Assembly: GCA_023300365.1 (NCBI GenBank)
Contig: JALZWD010000061.1
Coordinates: forward strand, 1-12,215
DNA: 12,215 nt
Reading direction: 5' to 3'
Source of the DNA: Flavimaricola sp.
GTDB taxonomy: Bacteria > Pseudomonadota > Alphaproteobacteria > Rhodobacterales > Rhodobacteraceae
Shown here: one piece after another, positions 1-12,215 of the stretch
Layout of the letters: every line of letters starts with the position of its first letter
Position numbering within the stretch: the first letter of the stretch is position 1
The notes under the pieces: model-generated
Seen by the model: the letters and a program-made list of their open reading frames with translations, nothing else
What the model was told of the DNA's origin: nothing
Databases searched by the model: none
Made by a program: the position numbers and the translations under genes

Positions 1-53
1 GAACCGTAGGGTATCCCAGCCCACCCTCCAGCACTCTCGAGCCTTCAGGCTTG

Positions 54-245
54 CTAGACGCTTTGGGCGGGGCGCAGAAACGGATAGGAACGTTGCATTC
101 GGCGGACGACGGCGACCTGCTGCACCACCGTGAGCCCGTTCCCCCCCGTCATGTCGGCCAGGTCTTCCTCGAGCCCCCGTCGCGTGCGCGCCTCGAAGCG
201 AGAGCTGTTCTGCCTCAGGGTGGTCTGCAGCCCGTGCAGGTGGAA
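54..245 (-). CDS. Putative 3'-terminal coding exon of a eukaryotic gene
   Basis: Read on the minus strand, this is an open frame of 63 codons ending in TAG at 56-54. By hand count about 55 of 64 codons end in G or C, far more than the other frames or the surrounding DNA would give, which is the main argument that it codes. It is directly preceded (246-285, minus) by a pyrimidine-rich stretch ending in CAG, as expected of a splice acceptor, so the exon would start at 245 with Phe-His-Leu-His. The peptide is polar and charged in its first half (FEARTRRGLEEDLADM), with a more hydrophobic VVQQVAVVRRM stretch and a C-terminal end YPFLRPAQSV. I do not recognise the family. No upstream exon was found with confidence. 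It could also be chance in a GC-rich patch. Exon status is inferred from codon use and the acceptor only. Confidence 0.4.
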   Translation of the reverse strand, partial: FHLHGLQTTLRQNSSRFEARTRRGLEEDLADMTGGNGLTVVQQVAVVRRMQRSYPFLRPAQSV

Positions 246-423
246 CTGTTCGGTACGGAGGGGAGCGGGAAACGGGGACAGGGTACGCGCGGGAGGCCAT
301 TCGAGCCGTCAATGGACCAGAGACCGGGGAGTGGGTGGGAATTAAAAACCCTCCTGCTACGAGTACCGCGCTCTTCTTTCTTCTTGCCACTCATCATATT
401 CGCCCTTCTTCACTCTCTCCCTG

Positions 424-537
424 CTATTACGGGGGGCCATAGTAAACAGGACCAAATATTGTCAGTAAAAATAGATAAATATATAGTTTTTTGTGGGTAC
501 CGCAGGTCCTATTTACTAAGAAGGTCCCCCGAAATAG
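424..537 (-). mobile_element. MITE-like palindromic element, copy 1
   Basis: The left end begins CTATTACGGGGGGCCATAG and the right end is its imperfect inverse (…GGTCCCCCGAAATAG), with further inverted similarity (AGGACC on one side, GGTCCT on the other) about 25 bases in. It is 114 bp long, AT-rich in the middle and has no coding capacity. The interior matches the inverse complement of copies at 2413 and 2675, so this copy lies in the opposite orientation. The size, terminal inverted repeats and multiple copies fit a miniature inverted-repeat transposable element. No clear target-site duplication was found, so the superfamily is left open. Confidence 0.65.
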
Positions 538-1194
538 TCGTAACTCAGAGCCGGGGTCACATAGCAGGCTCTCCTTCCCCCTCCTCCCACTACCGTACGT
601 GCCTTCATTTTTATCGCGAGAACACTTCAGCCATTTCTTCTCTCGTCGTTTCGCGTCAAACTGAGCCTACCCACGGCACTACTCTCAGCAGTTGATTTAT
701 CTACTGTACGTAAAACTGAATCTGACTCTAATCCCAAGTGCTTCGTCCTTACAACGGGAGCACATTTCTAAAAAGGGTTAAGCTTTTAGTTTTGTATGAA
801 AATGGGCACAAAACAAAATCATCCGCGGACGAGAAGTCACCGCACTTGAAGGTTTCGTGAGCGACTTTGCCCGCAAATACATTTCTACACCACCACCTAT
901 CCCGATACATAAGCAAGAACTCCCCGGGAATTAATTGATCCAGGGGGAAGAGAGCATTACGTAGGAAAAGACACTGCAGTTTTTTTCTTGTGGCATCTCT
1001 TCGTGGAGCCACTGATACTATTAATAGTAATTGGTGGCAATGAGGCGCGACCTCAGTTCCTGCAGTAGTCGAATCTGCGATGCATCATGCTGGGCGAATA
1101 CGGATTGTTGTGCTGAACCAACACGAACGAACATCTACGTACGCAGTCGTACGTATCGGTGACGTTTGGGTTCATTCTTTTCAGAAAACAAACC
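538..1194. other. Stretch without recognisable gene
   Basis: This stretch is mixed in base composition, with stop codons in most frames. The longest minus frame (749-1012) shows neither strong codon bias nor a recognisable motif. Palindromic CGTACG-type sites lie near 1135-1160. I see nothing else in it. It is most likely intergenic or intronic eukaryotic DNA. Confidence 0.5.
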
Positions 1195-1735
1195 GTCAGC
1201 AGCAGCAGCAGCAGCAGTAGGGCACACGAGGCCAGGGTCAGCGTCGCTGTACGCTCGTCTTGTCGGTCCAATCCTTGAACCCTTTGTACACGTGCTCGAT
1301 TTGCTGTATGTTTCGTGGATCCCCAACTCGAAATTCGGCATAATTTGAAGACGAAAAATCTGCACCTAACATGTGTCCAACAGAGAGAGCTTCTCGCAGC
1401 AGGTGCCACCACCACTACTACTGCTGTACGACATCTACAGCAGACCTTCTCCAGCAGCAAAACAGATGCAGCAGCAGTAGCAGCTGTAGGGCGCACGAGG
1501 CCAGGGTCGGCGTCGCCGTACGCTCGGCTTGTCGGTCTAACCCTTGAACCCTTTGTACACGTACTCGATTTTGTTGCGTGCTTCCTGGTTCCAACTCGAA
1601 ATTCGGCATAATTTGAAGTTGAAAAGTCTGCCACCTCATGTATGTGTATCCAACAGAGCTTCTCGTAGCAGGTGTCACCAATACTACTGCTGTACGACAT
1701 CTGCAGCAGAGCTTCTCCTGCTTCTCCGTCTCCCC
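1195..1735. repeat. Diverged tandem duplication, unit about 268 bp, two copies
   Basis: Blocks recur in order at a spacing of 266-269 bases: GCACGAGGCCAGGGTC-like sequence at 1223 and 1492, CCTTTGTACACGT at 1280 and 1549, CTCGAAATTCGGCATAATTTG at 1328 and 1597, and TGTACGACATCT at 1425 and 1691. The copies differ by scattered substitutions and small indels, and by the length of the CAG/CTG tract at the start of each unit. Minus-strand frames through the two units give similar peptides, but in different frames and with low-complexity Leu/Ala runs, so I read this as non-coding repeat DNA and not as a protein repeat. Confidence 0.75.
1197..1217 (+). repeat. (CAG)7 microsatellite
   Basis: Seven perfect CAG triplets are followed by TAG. 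They sit at the start of the first 268-bp repeat unit. The matching place in the second unit (about 1465-1485) has a shorter, interrupted CAG tract. Triplet tracts like this are common in eukaryotic DNA and unusual in a bacterial chromosome. Confidence 0.85.
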
Positions 1736-2310
1736 ATCAGTAGGAGGGTGGGCCTGACAATACCACCTGCAGCATGTCTTGGGACACGGCCCGAACGTTG
1801 TTGCGGACAGGCACATTCTGCCTGCGAGAACTCGTAGAGTTGGCTTTCGTTAGGTAGAACTAAAAAAACGAAAACCGTTTGAGATATTTTTCGGTTTTGT
1901 TTTTTTCTAACCTTGGCCTAATCATGTGCCTACACACGTTGCCGCACCTAGCTCGACCAACTCTGAACGACTCAGAACCGCGCCAGCACGAGAAGGTTTC
2001 GTTAGTGTGTGTGTGCGTGCACAGAGCCCGCCGGGACTGGCCTTGGTGCTGTGTGCGTTGAGCGCGGTGGACAAACGTGGCCGAAGAAAATGTTGAATCA
2101 CACACGCACACTTACAGAAAAACTAAAAAGGCACCCTACTCTCGTGCACGATTCGCTATGAAGAGGCTTTTTTTCCTTGGAAAACCAGGGGAAAAAAGGC
2201 TCGCGCTTCGCACTCGCGCGCCTCACTATAAGACACTTGACTAGGCGTAGGGAGTCGCTTCGTGACGTATACGGAACGAGAATCGAGATTCAAAAACTCC
2301 ACGCCTCGGA
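1736..2310. other. Stretch without recognisable gene
   Basis: No frame has a recognisable product. The stretch contains two T-rich hairpins (1861-1909, and about 2165-2200, where GGCTTTTTTTCC faces GGGGAAAAAAGGC) and a short GT-rich tract at about 2005-2020. It reads as intergenic eukaryotic DNA. Confidence 0.5.
1861..1909. repeat. AT-rich inverted repeat
   Basis: The left arm TAAAAAAACGAAAACCG (1861-1877) pairs with the right arm CGGTTTTGTTTTTTTCTA (1892-1909) with one small indel, around a loop of 14 bases. Its origin is unknown. It could be the remnant of a small palindromic element or chance in poly-A/T DNA. Confidence 0.5.
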
Positions 2311-2365
2311 CAGATCAACTACAGATCATCTACAGATCATCCACAGATCATCTACAGATCATTCC
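2311..2365. repeat. Minisatellite, five 11-bp units
   Basis: There are five consecutive 11-base units of the form CAGATCATCTA, starting at 2311, 2322, 2333, 2344 and 2355. The first and last units are the most diverged and the middle three differ by one base. This is a short tandem array with no sign of function. Confidence 0.85.
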
Positions 2366-2412
2366 GACTGGACGATCTAGATATTTCCAGGCAGACCTCT
2401 TTCTCGTCTGTA

Positions 2413-2522
2413 CTATTGCGGGGGACCATAGTTAATAGGACCTATGGTATACAAAAAAAACTGTATATTTAACAGTTTTACTAACAATATTTGATCCTAC
2501 TAACTATGATTCCCCTTAATAT
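2413..2522 (+). mobile_element. MITE-like palindromic element, copy 2
   Basis: The left terminus CTATTGCGGGGGACCATAG (2413) is mirrored by a degraded right terminus (…ACTATGATTCCCCTTAATA, to about 2522). The inner part, with GGACCTATGGTATACA followed by an A-rich then T-rich core and CTAACAATATTTGATCCTA, matches copy 3 closely. It is about 110 bp long and non-coding. It lies in the same orientation as copy 3 and opposite to copies 1 and 4. Confidence 0.65.
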
Positions 2523-2674
2523 TAATATCTATTAATTGCTCATGTTATCGGGTGGGGCTCGTATGATCTGCATCGTCTATTTAGCCCACGTTTCCGGGGT
2601 TGGACGATCTGTGCTGTGCAAATCCTGCACATCCTCTCACAACGACAGTCGAGGAACTGTTACGAGGGGTCATA

Positions 2675-2794
2675 CTATTACGGGGGACCATAGTTAATGG
2701 AAACCTATGGTATACATAAAAACCTGTTTATTTAACCATTTTCACTAACAATATTGGGTCCTACCTGGTATTAACTATGGTTCCCCGTAAATAG
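2675..2794 (+). mobile_element. MITE-like palindromic element, copy 3
   Basis: This is the best-preserved copy. CTATTACGGGGGACCATAG at the left and …CTATGGTTCCCCGTAAATAG at the right form terminal inverted repeats of about 20 bases, with second inverted blocks further in. It is about 120 bp, non-coding and AT-rich inside. The three bases ATA flank both ends, which may be a target-site duplication but is too short to be convincing. Copy 4 follows directly in the opposite orientation. Confidence 0.7.
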
Positions 2795-2799
2795 ATACC

Positions 2800-2899
2800 A
2801 CTGGAAGACCAAATGTTGTTGAATACCTGGTAGTAATAGTAGGGAAATATATAGGTTTTTGTGAGTACCGTAGGTCCTATGTGCTGTCCCCCGTAATAG
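2800..2899 (-). mobile_element. MITE-like palindromic element, copy 4, 5'-eroded
   Basis: The segment aligns with copy 1: GACCAAATGTTGT (here) versus GACCAAATATTGT, then GTAGTAATAG…AAATATATAG, GAGTACCGTAGGTCCTAT, and the terminus CCCCCGTAATAG at 2888-2899. The outer left terminus of about 15 bases is not recognisable, and the copy abuts copy 3. Left boundary is approximate. Confidence 0.55.
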
Positions 2900-2948
2900 A
2901 TGATCTACTGACTGTGGGCCATGCGCCGTCCGAGGTATGTATGTGATA

Positions 2949-3045
2949 TTAACCCTTTTAGAACCGCAGCCCCATTTTGGGGACAAAGTACTCAAACTTC
3001 GACTGGTTTGTCCCCAAAACGGAACTGCGGTTCTAAAAGGGTTAA
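2949..3045. mobile_element. piggyBac-like MITE with TTAA at both ends
   Basis: An 89-bp palindromic element (2953-3041) is flanked on both sides by TTAA (2949-2952 and 3042-3045). The arms are about 35 bases: both start CCCTTTTAGAACCGCAG, identical over 17 bases, and continue to TTTTGGGGACAAA with three mismatches between arms, around a 19-base centre. TTAA target duplications and termini starting CCC are known hallmarks of the piggyBac superfamily. No transposase frame is present, so this would be a non-autonomous derivative. The superfamily assignment is inferred from ends only. Confidence 0.7.
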
Positions 3046-3183
3046 CAGTTTGACATGATACCGAAAAACAAAACAAAACGCTATGATACGATTTCGGCAG
3101 TCGATGCTTTGATTGTTTTCGTTCACCACCATCAGCATAAGAAAACACGGAGGCGCCAGAGGGGATGGAGGGCGAAACGCGTT

Positions 3184-3227
3184 CGTTACGATGTATCGAA
3201 ACCTCGATATTCCGATACATCGTAGCG
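3184..3227. repeat. Inverted repeat (hairpin)
   Basis: The arms TACGATGTATCG (3187-3198) and CGATACATCGTA (3213-3224) are perfect over 12 bases, extending to 15 with one mismatch, around a 14-base centre that is itself rich in CGATA. It lies in the eukaryote-like part. It could be a tiny palindromic element or a chance hairpin. Function unknown. Confidence 0.6.
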
Positions 3228-3318
3228 CCCCATACGATATCCAACGCTATTATTAATAATAGTCAGCAGACAACGGCACACATAATACCGCGGCCGGCTG
3301 CCCGCGCTCCCCTCTCAC

Positions 3319-3406
3319 CGCCAGCTTGCCCGTTTCCTCATTGCTGAGCAGGCTCCGGCTTGCGGCGCCAGGCTCACCATCGAGGTCCTGATCACCCACG
3401 AACCCT
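3319..3406 (-). CDS. Weak candidate internal exon of a eukaryotic gene
   Basis: On the minus strand, a pyrimidine-rich stretch ending in GCGCAG (3407-3430) precedes an 88-base segment. The segment is followed by GTGAGAGG (3318-3311), which resembles a splice donor. One frame is open throughout and gives 29 residues of balanced, mostly polar composition (…DQDLDGEPGAASRSLL…), and by hand count 21 of 29 codons end in G or C. The family is not recognised. The combination could easily arise by chance in a GC-rich patch, and no link to the candidate exon at 54-245 can be shown. Confidence 0.2.
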
Positions 3407-3645
3407 CTGCGCACGGGAAATAAATAGGAAGGGAGACAAAATATTCGTCCCACTGCACCGATATAAACACAAGTCTACTATTATACGACTACGGTTGAAT
3501 TGAGCCTCAGCGAAACCGTTTTTTTTCTAGTTTCGGGTTTTTAGAAAAAAGCAGGAGAGGCGGAAATTTCCTGCCGCATCATAAAATATACCAGGTACCA
3601 CTATTGATAGGTGCCTAAACTTGAGGATCGCTTGTATACTGGCAT

Positions 3646-4194
3646 TTAACCCAAACGTTCCTTCTGTGATGGGAAAATGGGGGTGCCAAACACACCTGTC
3701 GATACCCCGTCCTCAAGGTTGGCGGCATATTCATCCGCCGCAGACATCATGCCCTTATCGGCCAAACCTGCATCAAACCCGGCCTCTTCCAAACAGGCAC
3801 GGATGACAGACTCCTCGGCAATATCCTTTTGATCGGCCCAACACGACCGGCTGATCGCAGAACAAAGCTTGCCCATATCCCCCGAACCATCGGCTTGTGC
3901 CGCAATAATCGCATAGGCTGCCGGCGCCCCATTTGTCGGCCAATGCGCAGGCTGAAGGTTCAAGGGCATCCCAAGCTTCTTGGCCTGCCGGTTCAACTCT
4001 TGCGCCCGCAAAACACCACGGTTGGGGTGCCTGTCTTTTGGCGGTGTGCCACCCGTCCGCGAAAACAACGCCATGATATCCAACGGGCGATATGTAATCG
4101 TCGCACCATGCTTGGCCGCGATCTCCTCAAGCCGCGTTCCCGCCAAGTATACATATGGTGAGAGCGTCGCGGTAAAATACTGAATATTGGGCAT
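3646..4194 (-). CDS. DsbA-family / 2-hydroxychromene-2-carboxylate isomerase-like protein, 3'-truncated
   Basis: The predicted protein belongs to the DsbA-like thioredoxin-fold family that includes 2-hydroxychromene-2-carboxylate isomerase (NahD) and kappa-class glutathione transferases. Known members catalyse glutathione-dependent isomerisation in aromatic degradation, but the true substrate of this subfamily is unknown. Residues 8-16 (TATLSPYVY) carry the Ser-Pro site with the expected catalytic Ser at 12. There is no CXXC pair, which argues against a disulfide oxidoreductase. [17 protein letters not shown] in the middle and GVFGTP near 167-172 are family-typical. After Pro172 the frame reads ten unrelated residues to a stop, whereas family members have roughly 25 more residues, so the C-terminus is lost at the junction. 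The start at 4194 is chosen over upstream in-frame codons because it gives the family N-terminus MPNIQYF and is preceded by AAAGGA. It is divergent from prs. Confidence 0.8.
3670..3681. other. Junction between eukaryote-like and bacterial DNA
   Basis: To the right, the minus-strand gene matches its family up to the residues Gly-Val-Phe-Gly-Thr-Pro. To the left, the frame continues only ten more codons of unrelated sequence before a stop, and the DNA changes to repeat-rich, gene-poor sequence. No direct repeat, insertion sequence, attachment site or transfer RNA is visible at the junction. The exact base cannot be fixed without the intact bacterial relative. Confidence 0.7.
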
Positions 4195-4291
4195 TTGTCG
4201 TCCTTTAAAGGGTCTAATTTCTAGGCCTAAACCTAGGCATGTGATACGCGGTGTCAACGCGCCGATTCCATTATCGAACAAAGGATATTCC
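4195..4291. promoter_or_regulatory. Divergent intergenic region between isomerase-like gene and prs
   Basis: These 97 bases must hold the promoters of both divergent genes. They contain the perfect palindrome CCTTTAAAGG (4202-4211), whose minus-strand AAAGGA forms the ribosome binding site of the left gene, and the inverted repeat CTAGG…CCTAG (4221-4236). The ribosome binding site of prs is AAAGGA at 4280-4285. The palindromes might be operator-like, but no known regulator site was recognised and no clear -35/-10 pair stands out. Confidence 0.35.
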
Positions 4292-5311
4292 ATGCCACAG
4301 GTCATTGAGCCCAAGCTTTTTGCAGGTAACGCCAACCAACCTCTGGCCTCCGCTGTCGCCCGCCGCATGTCGATGCACCGCGGCATTAACGTGGGCTTGG
4401 TCGACGCGCGCGTCGAACGGTTCAACGACGGCGAGATTTTCGTCGAAGTGTTTGAAAACGTGCGCGGCGAGGACATGTTTATCATCCAACCCACGTCCAA
4501 TCCCGCCAACGATAACCTGATGGAATTGCTGGTCATTTCCGACGCCCTACGCCGCTCATCGGCGGCTCGTATCACCGCCGTGATCCCCTATTTTGGCTAT
4601 GCCCGCCAAGACCGCCGCACCAAGGCACGCACGCCGATTTCCGCCAAACTTGTCGCCAATCTAATCGCCGAGGCCGGGATCGAACGGGTTCTGACAATGG
4701 ACCTCCACGCCGCCCAAATCCAAGGCTTCTTCGACATCCCCGTCGATAACCTCTACGCATCGCCAATCTTTGCCCTCGATATTAAGCACCACTTCAAGGG
4801 CAACATGGACGACATCATGATCATCTCGCCCGACGTCGGCGGCGTGGCCCGCGCCCGCGAACTGGCCCAGCGGATCAAGGCCCCCCTCGCCATCGTTGAC
4901 AAGCGCCGCGAAAAGGCGGGCGAAGTGGCCGAAATGACTGTCATCGGCGACGTCAAAGGCAAACGCTGCATTATCGTCGATGACATCGTCGACACCGCCG
5001 GAACCCTGTGCAAGGCCGCCGACACACTGATCGACGCCGGCGCAAAAGAGGTCCACAGCTATATCACCCACGGCGTGCTCTCGGGCCCCGCTGTTGGACG
5101 GATTGAGAAATCCGTGATGAAATCACTCGTCATCACCGACAGCATCCAAGCCACCGAACCGGTTCTGGCCTGCAAAGACATCCGCGTCGTGCCAACCGCC
5201 CCGATGTTTGCCCAAGCCGTCCTCAATATCTGGAACGGCACGTCCGTCTCGTCGCTGTTTGATCACGAGACGCTCTCGCCAATTTACGAAGGCATGTATT
5301 CCGCCACCTAA
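4292..5311 (+). CDS. prs: Ribose-phosphate pyrophosphokinase (PRPP synthetase)
   Basis: Transfers pyrophosphate from ATP to ribose 5-phosphate to make PRPP, the precursor for purines, pyrimidines, histidine, tryptophan and NAD; it is a cytosolic oligomer. The 339-residue protein has the class I features in order: NDGEIFVEV near 45-53, the ATP-contact loop [10 protein letters not shown] (100-109), the PRPP synthetase signature [16 protein letters not shown] (137-152), the DKRREKAGE flexible-loop region (203-211), and the ribose-phosphate binding motif [12 protein letters not shown] (227-238). It is somewhat longer than the E. coli enzyme (315 residues). The start at 4292 is preferred over the upstream in-frame ATG at 4187 because AAAGGA lies six bases before it and the protein then begins at the conserved region. 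It is transcribed away from the isomerase-like gene and convergent with the lectin gene, 19 bases apart. Confidence 0.97.
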
Positions 5312-5330
5312 AGCAGGGGACACTCCCCCC

Positions 5331-5681
5331 CTAGCTGACATCCCAATTCTGATCGTCGCTAACCGGGCCAATCGCCATCCAATTTACCCGCGCGCGGGCA
5401 ACCTTGGTATCGCCCCATGTGCGAAACACAATCGTAAACCCCGCCTTGGTGATATCCTCGGTGCCCACATCAACACGGGCAAAAGCATCGTTCGAAATAT
5501 CCCACATCGACAATCCCACATGCACCGCAGGTGGCTGAACAAAAGGCTCGGCAAAGCTTGCATGCACACGGATATGCCGCGCCCCATCGCCCGTCCACAT
5601 ATCGCCGTCATGTTCAAAATCAGAAAACAGAACCGTATCGCCCTGCTCAATCCCAACCCGATGATGTGAAATCTTGATCAT
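5331..5681 (-). CDS. H-type lectin domain protein
   Basis: A small 116-residue protein made almost entirely of one H-type lectin domain (the fold of Helix pomatia agglutinin and discoidin C-termini, which bind N-acetylgalactosamine-type sugars). Residues about 46-105 show the family pattern: PFVQPPAVHVGLSMWD, then an Arg-Val strand, DITKAGFTIVFRTWGDT (76-92) and the closing VNWMAIG (99-105). There is no signal peptide or membrane segment, so an exported role is not supported by sequence and the ligand is unknown. ATG at 5681 is taken as start, but no strong ribosome binding site precedes it, and an upstream overlapping small frame might be translated with it. It sits between the atp operon terminator and prs, in the atp direction. 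Confidence 0.8.
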   Translation of the reverse strand: MIKISHHRVGIEQGDTVLFSDFEHDGDMWTGDGARHIRVHASFAEPFVQPPAVHVGLSMWDISNDAFARVDVGTEDITKAGFTIVFRTWGDTKVARARVNWMAIGPVSDDQNWDVS

Positions 5682-5798
5682 AAACGCGATACTTTACAGC
5701 CAACTCATGCACTCTGCCTCTCAAATACGGCAAATACACCGTCTCGAAAAGCCAATCCTGCACGTGGCCCCACGGCAAAACTTGCGGCGTGCCAAACG

Positions 5799-5825
5799 AA
5801 AAAGGCCCCGCAAATGCAGGGCCTT
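5799..5825 (-). terminator. Rho-independent terminator of the atp operon
   Basis: On the minus strand, 23 bases after the atpC stop, AAGGCCCTGC and GCGGGGCCTT form a ten-base stem with one G-T pair and the loop ATTT. It is followed by a run of five T (the last two of them closing the stem) and CGTTT. Position, GC-rich stem and T tract are as expected for intrinsic termination after the last gene of the operon. Confidence 0.85.
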
Positions 5826-5847
5826 GTTCAATTCTATCTGGCACGGC

Positions 5848-6273
5848 CTAGTTTGAGGCCGAAAGCCCAATCGTATCACCCATGGCAACCATATCCGCGA
5901 GCAGCTTGGCTGCGTCATCCACAGGGCCCGGCTCGTTGACAAAATCGCTCGCCTTGGCATGTGCATCGCGCGCGGCTTTGACCATTCCGTCAAACACCTC
6001 TTGCGTCACATCACCCTTAGGCAGGGCTTGCTCGGCCAAAACCGAAACGCCTGTCGCGCTGATCTCTGCAAAACCGCCAGAGACAACATAGTCGTCCGTG
6101 CCGCCCGCATGGGTCACGCTCAGGATACCGGGGCGCAATGTGGTGATCGTGGCGGCATGGCTTCCCATGACCGTCATATCGCCGTCCGCACCGGGGATCT
6201 GTACGGCCGTGGCCTCAAGCGACGCAAGGCGACGCTCAGGGCTGACCAGATCAAATTGCAGTGTCTCTGCCAT
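5848..6273 (-). CDS. atpC: F1 ATP synthase subunit epsilon
   Basis: Central-stalk subunit of F1 that couples rotation of gamma and the c-ring to catalysis and can inhibit ATP hydrolysis. The 141-residue protein shows the N-terminal beta-sandwich typical of the family: [12 protein letters not shown] (5-16), then [14 protein letters not shown] (27-40), LRPGIL and [11 protein letters not shown] short helical C-terminal part follows. It is the last gene of the operon. The start ATG lies 9 bases after the atpD stop, and AAGGA of its ribosome binding site overlaps that stop (TAAGGA), suggesting coupled translation. A terminator follows directly. Confidence 0.95.
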
Positions 6274-6282
6274 TGGTTTTCC

Positions 6283-7731
<1,449 letters not shown>

Positions 7732-8610
7732 TTAAAGCGCTTCCGCGCCCGAAATAATTTCGATCAGCTCGTTGGTGATGACGGCCTGACGCGAGCGGTT
7801 ATACTCGATGGTCAGCTTGTCGATCATCTCGCCAGCGTTGCGTGTTGCGTTGTCCATCGCCGACATACGTGCACCCTGCTCGGACGCGCCGTTCTCGAGC
7901 AGTGCCGAGAAGATCGCCGTGGCAACCCCGCGCGGCAAAAGATCGGCCAAAATGGCCTCTTCGCTCGGCTCATAGTCGTAAATGGTGCCATCAGTCGGCG
8001 CGTCGTCCGTTGCCTCAAACGCGGCAGGGATGATTTGCTTGGCTGTTGGGATTTGCGTCACGACGTTCTGGAATTCAGAATAGAAAATCGTCGCCACATC
8101 AAATTCGCCAGTGTCAAAACGCCCAAGGATATCTTGGGCGATGCCCTGCGCGTCGCTATAGGCCACCCGCTTTACCTCGGTCAAATCAACATGATGCACG
8201 AAATGCTCGCCCAACTCGCGGCGCACCGCATCGCGGCCCTTTTTGCCCACAGTCACGATCTTAACCGTCTTGCCATCGGCAAGCAGGTCATGCGCATGTG
8301 TGCGGGCCAGTTTGGCGATGTTGCCGTTAAAGCCACCACAAAGACCACGCTCGGCCGTCATGATAACCAACAGATGCACCTGATCGCTGCCCGTACCGGA
8401 CAACAGCTTGGGCGCACCATCCGCAGAGCCAACAGAAGCCGCAAGCCCTGCCATCACGGCGTTAAACCGCTCTGTATAGGGACGCGAGGCTTCCGCAGAA
8501 TCTTGGGCACGGCGCAATTTCGCCGCCGCAACCATCTGCATCGCCTTGGTGATCTTCCGCGTGGATTTCACGCTTTCGATCCTGTTTTTTAGGTCCTTAA
8601 GACTTGGCAT
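7732..8610 (-). CDS. atpG: F1 ATP synthase subunit gamma
   Basis: The rotor shaft of F1: N- and C-terminal helices form the coiled coil inside the alpha3-beta3 hexamer, and the central domain contacts epsilon and the c-ring. The 292-residue protein has the N-terminal helix [20 protein letters not shown] (7-26), the [11 protein letters not shown] segment of the Rossmann-like domain (85-95), and the C-terminal signature [15 protein letters not shown] (278-292). It lies between atpA and atpD, with 31 and 18 bases between genes, as in other alphaproteobacterial F1 operons. Confidence 0.97.
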
Positions 8611-8641
8611 AGGCCTTGTCTCCTATCTCAGGGTCAGCGGT

Positions 8642-10177
8642 CTAGGCGAAATCGGCGGCAAACGCATCAAGCGCTGCTTTGATTTTGTCTTCGGCGTCGC
8701 CTTTGATCTTGGGATCGTCCTTTGTGATCATATCAAGCACATCAGAACCCTTGGTCCGCATGTGATTAAGCAATCCTGCTTCCCAACGGCCAACGTCTTT
8801 GACGTCAACATTGTCGAGATAACCCTTGGTGCCCGCATAGATCACACACACGATCTCGGCGTTGGTCAGGGGCGAATACTGCGGCTGCTTCATCAGCTCG
8901 GTCAAACGCGCACCGCGGTTCAACAGGGCCTGCGTCGCGGCATCCAAATCGGACCCAAACTGCGCAAAAGCGGCCATTTCGCGGTACTGAGCAAGCTCAA
9001 GCTTAACCGGACCAGCAACAGACTTCATCGAATTTGTCTGCGCAGATGATCCAACACGAGACACCGAAAGGCCTGTGTTCACAGCCGGGCGAATACCCTG
9101 ATAGAACAACTCGGTCTCAAGGAAGATCTGACCATCAGTGATCGAAATCACGTTTGTCGGAATAAACGCCGAAACGTCACCACCTTGGGTCTCAATGATC
9201 GGCAACGCCGTCAAAGATCCCGCACCATTGTCCTCGTTCAACTTGGCCGAACGCTCCAAAAGACGCGAGTGAAGATAGAAAACGTCACCAGGATAGGCTT
9301 CACGACCCGGCGGACGACGCAGCAAAAGCGACATCTGACGATACGACACAGCCTGCTTGGAAAGGTCATCATAAATGATCAAAGCGTGGCGGCCATTGTC
9401 ACGGAAGTGCTCGGCCATCGCGGTTGCAGAATACGGCGCAAGATACTGCATCGGCGCAGGATCAGACGCGGTCGCGGCCACAACAGTGGTGTACTCAATC
9501 GCACCGCTCTCTTCGAGCTTCTTAACCAGCTGCGCCACAGTCGACCGCTTCTGGCCGATCGCAACATAGATACAGTACAACTTGTCGTACTCGTTCTCGG
9601 CGGCATCGTTATACGATTTCTGGTTCAGGATCGTATCAAGCGCCACGGCTGTTTTACCGGTCTGACGGTCACCAATGATCAACTCGCGCTGGCCACGGCC
9701 AATCGGGATCATCGCATCAACAGACTTAAGGCCTGTCGCCATCGGCTCGTGAACCGATTTACGCGGGATAATGCCCGGCGCTTTGCTGTCGGCTACGGCG
9801 CGCTTGGATGTCTTGATGTCACCCTTGCCGTCCAATGGGTTGCCCAAACCGTCAACAACACGGCCCAGCAGTTCGTCCCCTGTCGGGACTTCCACAATAG
9901 ACTTGGTGCGCTTAACAGTATCGCCCTCTTTAATGTCCCGGTCGGAACCAAAGATAACGCAACCGACGTTGTCGGCCTCAAGGTTAAGGGCCATTCCGCG
10001 GATACCACCGGGGAATTCAACCATCTCACCGGCCTGAATGTTATCGAGGCCATAGACGCGGGCAATACCGTCACCGACGGAAAGAACCCGGCCCACCTCG
10101 GCCACCTCGGCCTCTTGGCCAAAGTTTTTGATCTGGTCCTTGAGGATCGCAGAAATCTCAGAAGCGTTGATCGCCAT
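8642..10177 (-). CDS. atpA: F1 ATP synthase subunit alpha
   Basis: Non-catalytic nucleotide-binding subunit of the alpha3-beta3 hexamer; it supplies the arginine finger to the catalytic site. It is 511 residues, full length. The N-terminal [13 protein letters not shown] helix (8-20) that contacts delta is present, followed by P-loop GDRQTGKT (169-176), [12 protein letters not shown] (265-276), the [20 protein letters not shown] region (291-310) and the signature [17 protein letters not shown] (364-380), with Arg374 as the finger. The start codon overlaps the atpH stop by one base (TAATG), pointing to translational coupling. Confidence 0.98.
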
Positions 10178-10743
10178 TAACGGACCTCTTTCATGCTGTT
10201 CTGGAGTGCCTTGAGCTTGGAGGCGATCGACGTATCGATCATCTTCGAACCCACTTTAACGACAAGACCGCCGATGAGGCTTTCATCAACGGTCTCGGTG
10301 ATTTTCACAGTCTTGCCAGTCTGCTTGGAAAGCGATTTGGCAAGCTTGTCTGATTGCGCCTTGGTCAGTGCCTTGGCACTTGTCACGTCAGCGGTTACTT
10401 CGCCTTTTTCATCCGCGATGCGTCCGCGCAGGGCGGCAATCATCTGCGGCAAAACAAACAGGCGGCGCTTGCTGGCCATCAGGCCCAACACGCTTGCCGT
10501 TGTCGGCGACAGTTTCATCTTTTTGGCAACACCCGCGATCGCGGCGGATTGCTCTTCGCGCGTGTAAATCGGCGAAGACGTCAGGGTGCGCAAATCGTCG
10601 CTTGCGGCCAATGCGGCCTCAAGTGCGTCTACGTCCTTTTCCAATGCCGTCATGCCTTTGGCTTTACCCTCAAGGGCAATGTCAAATACGGCGGATGCAT
10701 AGCGTTGCGCGATGCCGGTTGAAATCGAAGCTGGTTCGGACAC
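10177..10743 (-). CDS. atpH: F1 ATP synthase subunit delta
   Basis: Peripheral-stalk subunit joining the top of F1 to the b subunits of F0. As called, 188 residues: an N-terminal helical domain ([16 protein letters not shown]), [10 protein letters not shown] in the middle, and the C-terminal [18 protein letters not shown] region. Two in-frame GTG codons, at 10749 and 10743, could start it. GGAAGG at 10755-10750 would touch the first but lies six bases before the second, and the second gives the N-terminus [11 protein letters not shown] that I recall for relatives, so 10743 is chosen. First gene of atpHAGDC; the F0 genes are absent here, as is normal for Alphaproteobacteria, where they sit in a separate locus. 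Confidence 0.93.
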
Positions 10744-10999
10744 GTCCACCCTTCCGATGGTTGGGGCCTGACAATCCCGGTCGCATTGGGATCACTCGGC
10801 AGCTTACGTCGGCCCTCAAAAGTTGCGAAGGCGTTAAATCAAGGGCGATGTAGCAGACAGATTTGTATGCCGCAAGCCGCGTTGGCTTGGTATTTTGGTT
10901 TGATTGAAAACGTACATGTGCACAGCAGAATTGTTATTTTCTTGGGTCTCGCGCCGCAATGCGGCACCCCCTGCGACATTCCGCCCCGCCTTACAGGCC
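10744..10999 (-). promoter_or_regulatory. Leader region of the atp operon
   Basis: These 256 bases lie between the stop of the methyltransferase gene and atpH, both on the minus strand. They should carry the atp operon promoter and any terminator of the upstream gene. A short GC hairpin (GCCGCAATGCGGC on the plus strand, about 10952-10964) lacks a T tract, so it is not called a terminator. GGAAGG at 10755-10750 is the atpH ribosome binding site. No convincing -35/-10 pair was identified. The region becomes AT-richer around 10880-10940. Confidence 0.4.
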
Positions 11000-11740
11000 T
11001 TATGCTGGCTCCGCCGCGGGCGATCTGATTCCACTCAACACGCCGCGCGCCGCCTTGGCCCGAACCGGCGTGCCCCTTGGCGTCACCACGTGCTTGCTCA
11101 CCTCAACCATCAAAACACCCCCCGCCGAAAACAGCGGCATATGCCGACCGACCATCTCTAGAATGCCGGCGGTCTTGCGCCATGTCCGCTTGTGCGATGG
11201 CGGTTGATAGAGTGTCGAAATCTGCCGCTCGGTGATAAAACGGTGTTTGCGCAATTGCGCATCCAACTGCCCCAATGAATAGGGCCGCCCATATCCAAAC
11301 GGCGTGCCATCACTGCGCGACCAAAGCCCCGCCCGGTTGGGCACCACAAAAACCGCCTGCCCGCCGGGGCCAAGCACGCGCCAACATTCCTCCAAAACGG
11401 CGGCTTGGTCGTCTGATGTCTCAAGCCCATGCATCACCACCAGCTTGTCAACATGCCCGGTCTCAATCGGCCACATCGTATCTTCGCAAAGAACGCTCAC
11501 ATTCCGCTCGCCTGCGGGCCACGGCATCACACCCTGCGGCCCCGGCATCAGGCCAATCACCCGCCGCGCATCCGCCAAATAGGGCCGCAACAACGGCACC
11601 GCAAATCCAAACCCCGCAACCGTTTGCCCTTTGGCCTCCGGCCACCACTGCACCAATTGATCGCGCACAACCTTTTGCGCCGCCCGCCCCAACGGACTGC
11701 GGTAATAAAAATTGCGCAGATCAAGCACATCAAGATGCAT
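11000..11740 (-). CDS. Class I SAM-dependent methyltransferase
   Basis: A 246-residue protein resembling the methyltransferases of the UbiE/type 11 class. After an N-terminal helix ([12 protein letters not shown], 11-22) comes a variant SAM-binding loop VAGFGFAVP (41-49), and then [17 protein letters not shown] (59-75). [12 protein letters not shown] (96-107) is the acidic/motif II region and [20 protein letters not shown] (116-135) is the typical post-II/III block. The loop lacks the usual acidic first residue and the full GxGxG pattern, so activity is not certain, although the remaining fold signature is clear. Substrate is unknown. GAGGAAGG lies about 11 bases before the ATG. It is divergent from gloB across 62 bases; adjacency to a glyoxalase II gene suggests, but does not show, a link. 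Confidence 0.85.
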
Positions 11741-11802
11741 TGCAGACGCGGCCTTCCTCGGTCACTCTCTCATTCAACATAACAACAGGATCGCACAAGA
11801 CC
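11741..11802. promoter_or_regulatory. Divergent intergenic region, methyltransferase / gloB
   Basis: These 62 bases separate two divergent starts and must contain at least part of both promoters, which probably overlap. GAGGAAGG near the left edge (read on minus) serves the methyltransferase, and CAGGA at 11786-11790 may serve gloB, 12 bases from its ATG. No operator is recognised. Confidence 0.35.
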
Positions 11803-12215
11803 ATGGCCGCACTGCCCAAAAACACAACAATTCTGACAATCCCCTGCCTGTCAGACAATTATGCCTTTTTGATCCACAACGCAGACACCAACGAAACCGC
11901 CCTGATCGACGCGCCCGAACCTGCGCCCATCCAAGCCGCACTTGATGCACAAGGCTGGACCCTGACGGATATCTTGCTCACCCATCACCACTGGGATCAC
12001 ATCGACGGCCTCGACGCCCTGCGCGGCACCGCCCGCGTGATCGGCGCCACCGCCGACGCCCACCGCCTGCCCCCGCTTGATCTTGCCGTGGCCGAGGGCG
12101 ACAGCATCACAGTTTGTGGCGCCCAGACCGACATCTTTGACGTCTCGGGCCACACCGTCGGCCATATCGCGTTTCACATGCCCACGCTGCACGCCGCCTT
12201 TACCGCCGACAGCCT
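11803..12215 (+). CDS. gloB: Hydroxyacylglutathione hydrolase (glyoxalase II), 5' part
   Basis: Hydrolyses S-lactoylglutathione to lactate and glutathione, the second step of methylglyoxal detoxification in the cytosol. The window holds 137 complete codons of a protein usually about 255 residues long; it runs off the end without a stop. The metallo-beta-lactamase fold begins with TIPCLSDNYAFLI (12-24), typical of glyoxalase II. The metal-binding motif THHHWDH (60-66) and the next ligand region SGHTVGHIAFH (115-125) are intact. The start at 11803 (ATG GCC GCA) has CAGGA 12 bases upstream. A minus-strand open frame over 11851-12192 is a shadow. Confidence 0.93.
   Translation, partial: MAALPKNTTILTIPCLSDNYAFLIHNADTNETALIDAPEPAPIQAALDAQGWTLTDILLTHHHWDHIDGLDALRGTARVIGATADAHRLPPLDLAVAEGDSITVCGAQTDIFDVSGHTVGHIAFHMPTLHAAFTADS

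Follow-up and report, generated by a model that had tools for sequence, protein, structure and literature searches.

The locus described here raises the question of how bacterial genes and DNA of eukaryotic appearance came to lie side by side on one contig. The window, the whole stretch of 12,215 bases that was analysed, is an entire contig (C61) of a Flavimaricola sp. assembly of 444 contigs and 2.19 Mb, with a completeness of 66% and a stated contamination of 2.42%. We consider C61 to be a chimeric, misjoined contig, most likely eukaryote DNA joined to a Rhodobacterales fragment within a gene for a DsbA-fold protein, with a probability of roughly 0.92.

The join and the gene that it cuts are as follows.

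3670 to 3680, no strand: join, placed by bacterial homology from 3680 on and by comparison with the relatives' gene
3680 to 4194, minus strand: DsbA-fold gene (PF01323), cut after GVFGTP with the loss of about 27 C-terminal residues, as judged from Pfam and relatives

The join is confirmed as genuinely present in the sequence and is placed at 3680, inside the DsbA-fold gene, where the DNA alignment with both same-genus genomes (G001 and G002) begins. This agrees with the first-pass annotation, which had put it within 3640 to 3700, between DNA left of about 3670 and DNA right of about 3681. The origin changes abruptly at this single point, which lies within a gene and coincides with no boundary of a gene or element, as in a chimera. 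The same annotation had the gene cut after its GVFGTP motif, and this stands: the window protein continues with ten foreign residues and then a stop, and all 18 of the relatives inspected (from 61 loci of other genomes) carry about 27 further residues with an FWGQD motif, rather than the roughly 25 that had been counted as removed. The nearest named relatives of the DsbA-fold gene, for which 50 loci were found, are in the Rhodobacterales, e.g., Roseovarius, Shimia, Sulfitobacter, and Tateyamaria. One relative (L008) has CCCATTTT at the join point, the same as the window, and a microhomology of a few bases at the join is possible.

To judge from its sequence, the DNA right of 3680 is an unremarkable piece of Rhodobacterales chromosome and runs collinear with both same-genus genomes. 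The window matches G001 over 3680-5298 at 77% and over 5857-9049 at 82% (the last end being set by the stretch compared), and it matches G002 over 3680-5301 at 76% and over 5879-10759 at 83%. Beyond the DsbA-fold gene, the segment carries the following genes, assigned from Pfam and domain annotation.

4292 to 5311, plus strand: prs, ribose-phosphate diphosphokinase
5331 to 5681, minus strand: gene with an H-type lectin domain (PF09458), between prs and atpC
5848 to 10749, minus strand: ATP synthase F1 genes atpC-atpD-atpG-atpA-atpH, in this order
5848 to 6273, minus strand: atpC
6283 to 7713, minus strand: atpD
7732 to 8610, minus strand: atpG
8642 to 10177, minus strand: atpA
10177 to 10749, minus strand: atpH
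11000 to 11740, minus strand: gene with a methyltransferase domain
11803 to 12215, plus strand: N-terminal part of gloB, cut by the contig end

No decay was seen in the bacterial genes of C61. A scan gave 19 terminator-like sites where 13.4 are expected by chance; the strongest, at 5802-5825, follows atpC and, together with the gene set, bears out the compact bacterial landscape with a terminator that had been described right of the join. Promoter-like sites in the window occur at chance level only, and neither a tRNA scan nor an Rfam search of positions 1-12,215 gave a match. A plasmid search with 3640-7700 as the query returned 106 records, every one at 60 to 80% identity and the best among those listed covering atpD; we rejected these matches as adding nothing.

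The left part has a different anatomy, with the features listed below; the ends of the MITE-like copies were set by eye.

1 to 3679, no strand: tract without bacterial character, eukaryote-like, fused to the bacterial contig (coding signal, bin search, and repeats)
57 to 245, minus strand: exon-like open frame of 63 amino acids, followed by a stop and lying behind an acceptor-like CAG, a possible last exon (translation; splice site by eye)
about 424 to 540, no strand: MITE-like copy 1 (repeat families D2, D5, I1, and I3)
1197 to 1217, plus strand: (CAG)7 microsatellite, from the repeat scan
about 2413 to 2521, no strand: MITE-like copy 2 (D2 and I3)
about 2675 to 2790, no strand: MITE-like copy 3 (I6), with 21-bp terminal inverted repeats that are 95% complementary
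about 2832 to 2900, no strand: MITE-like half copy
2949 to 3045, no strand: palindrome or hairpin (I2), with 48-bp arms that are 85% complementary

The codon model was trained on the bin, and its comparison set comprised the 83 readable contigs among 101 others (18 were masked). Average scores were -0.19 for the left part (highest, -0.06; n = 57 windows), 0.20 for the right part (lowest, -0.04; n = 138), and 0.18 for the 83 other contigs (n = 6762). At a threshold of -0.03, positions 1-3780 form a single unbroken stretch below threshold; this 3.78-kb extent depends on that looser threshold, a stricter one leaving just an 8-window run within the left part. At the same threshold, stretches of at least 600 bp occur in 11 of the 83 other contigs and reach a maximum of 960 bp. 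The left part had been called gene-poor and full of MITEs and microsatellites. The first description fits the missing coding signal over 1-3780, and the second was somewhat overstated: there are one MITE-like family, one hairpin, one (CAG)7, one 11-bp tandem array, and one duplicated segment (spacing of about 269 bp).

Searches for the origin of the left part gave little. It has no second place elsewhere in the bin. With the piece 2400-3250 as the query, the 393 other family genomes yielded a single match, of 39 bases. Of 384 other class genomes, 3 matched positions 1-3660; the longest match covers 54 query bases, and one consists purely of CAG repeats. Both searches scored at most two candidates per genome, which limits their sensitivity. 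Such short matches appear chance-like. A six-frame Pfam search of the left part found nothing, and a PDB search toward naming the eukaryote found no relative. The exon-like frame at 57-245, searched alone, matched the C-terminal end of NCA2 below the Pfam cut-off (E of 0.02 to 0.04; 0.022), a protein that its C terminus presumably resembles. We do not rely on the NCA2 identity; sub-cut-off matches are uninformative here, because an exon-like frame on another contig, C440, also gave a phage-family match with an E of 0.01. Anatomy, rather than any eukaryotic sequence match, is what leads us to infer a eukaryotic nuclear origin for the left part.

The bacterial locus can be followed on the far side of the join. 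Left of the join point in G001, the remainder of the DsbA-fold gene gives way to what we take to be a threonine-aldolase-like gene, then a small gene resembling YkgJ, and then ribF. Contig C39, also in the bin, has the neighbourhood further left in the order of the sister genomes and terminates inside ribF; from its end to the join, G001 has 1759 bp and G002 has 1757 bp. The adjoining ~1.76 kb, including the end of the DsbA-fold gene, was not found in the bin, and C39 and C61 have no physical link. Since both match the sisters' order with a small gap, the bacterial locus looks normal on either side of an unassembled interval. A search of the bin for PF00006 gave three matches: two on C61, atpA and atpD, and one on C372, an ATPase of the FliI type. 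With just one atpA and one atpD, no second atp operon was found, though from a 66%-complete bin it could be missing.

A second join of the same kind appears to be present on C440 (L135; 15,705 bases), in which a bacterial capsule-type gene ends at 15,097 and is followed by eukaryote-like DNA. This tail, from about 15100 to 15705, contains a repeated motif, (CTG)8, and a terminal long (TTG)n, as well as the following feature.

15,440 to 15,580: exon-like frame flanked by AG and GT, by eye

C440, one of the 83 readable contigs, was picked out via its microsatellites; the codon scan did not flag it, and its 4-mer score is only mildly raised. In the bin, an exact (CAG)5 was found on C61 and C440 only. 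Two family genomes match the bacterial part of C440 well, but G002 matches it over one stretch of 48 bases and G001 not at all, and its assignment to the species is uncertain because the two same-genus genomes hardly match it. Two such joins in one bin favour repeated misjoining with the DNA of a co-sampled organism.

A genuine insertion in either direction is unlikely. If at least 8.5 kb of Rhodobacterales DNA had recently entered a eukaryotic chromosome, the two kinds of DNA would adjoin in one contig, as they do on C61, and C440 could be a second such junction; the bacterial genes, however, are without visible decay, C61 has a single junction, the donor's own separate atp operon was not found in the (incomplete) bin, and C39 fits beside C61 in the sisters' order. 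C61 stops at 12215 within bacterial gloB, and the flank beyond the bacterial block lies outside it. Bacterial inserts in eukaryotic chromosomes are like C61 in having DNA of both kinds side by side in one sequence, and C61 is unlike them in showing neither decay nor a second junction and in carrying the sole atp locus found in the bin. We regard such an insertion as very improbable, and a eukaryote that carries recently acquired, undecayed Rhodobacterales chromosome blocks, with C61 and C440 as two of its junctions, seems no more credible. The reverse event, in which eukaryote-like DNA would have entered the bacterial chromosome and disrupted the DsbA-fold gene, accords with the otherwise normal neighbourhood on C39 and C61 and with an unassembled interval that leaves room for an insert, but the non-coding, repeat-rich DNA extends over at least 3.7 kb without a second boundary, and in other family genomes nothing of it was seen beyond the 39-base match; we give this event equally little weight.

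Least probable of all is that the left part represents an unusual bacterial, plasmid, or viral region. The eukaryotic assignment comes from the anatomy of the left part, which leaves room for this reading, but a coding signal absent over 3.78 kb compares with at most 960 bp in the 83 other contigs, and the family and class genomes give short matches only. Viral contigs gave 0 matches to each of three exact patterns, which were derived from the palindrome and the MITE-like element, and a viral origin was rejected on this count; exact patterns would miss diverged copies.

In the chimeric-contig reading, DNA from a co-sampled organism, most likely a eukaryote, would have been misjoined to a Rhodobacterales fragment within the DsbA-fold gene, probably during library preparation or assembly, and C61, being about 70% bacterial, would for that reason have been placed in the bacterium's bin. 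An assembly chimera or contamination had already been preferred in the first-pass annotation, and that preference gains support from the fragmented bin, the continuation on C39 after a gap, the sole atpA and atpD found in the bin, and the join on C440. A review (PMC8862208) describes metagenomic assembly as yielding chimeric sequences. The chimeric contigs treated there resemble C61 in having parts of different taxonomic origin on one contig, and in the fragmented bin; they differ in that similar regions are merged, whereas the C61 join has no demonstrated similarity.

No reliable conclusion on bacterium-eukaryote transfer can be drawn from C61. At least two contigs of the bin appear with eukaryote-like tails despite the stated contamination of 2.42%, which is a warning about quality; gene calls near the joins, and claims of inter-domain transfer built on them, should therefore be discounted.

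Among the other contigs of the bin, C17, C60, and C205 rank highest in the 4-mer model, which did not single out C440. C16, C60, and C210, with weak coding signal, have a bacterial appearance, partly read by eye. C17 (L094), flagged by the codon scan as well, has a gene at 389-2146 that ends in a type IX secretion sorting tail (Por_Secre_tail). Such tails are typical of Bacteroidota, and C17 is probably a contig from another bacterium in the bin.
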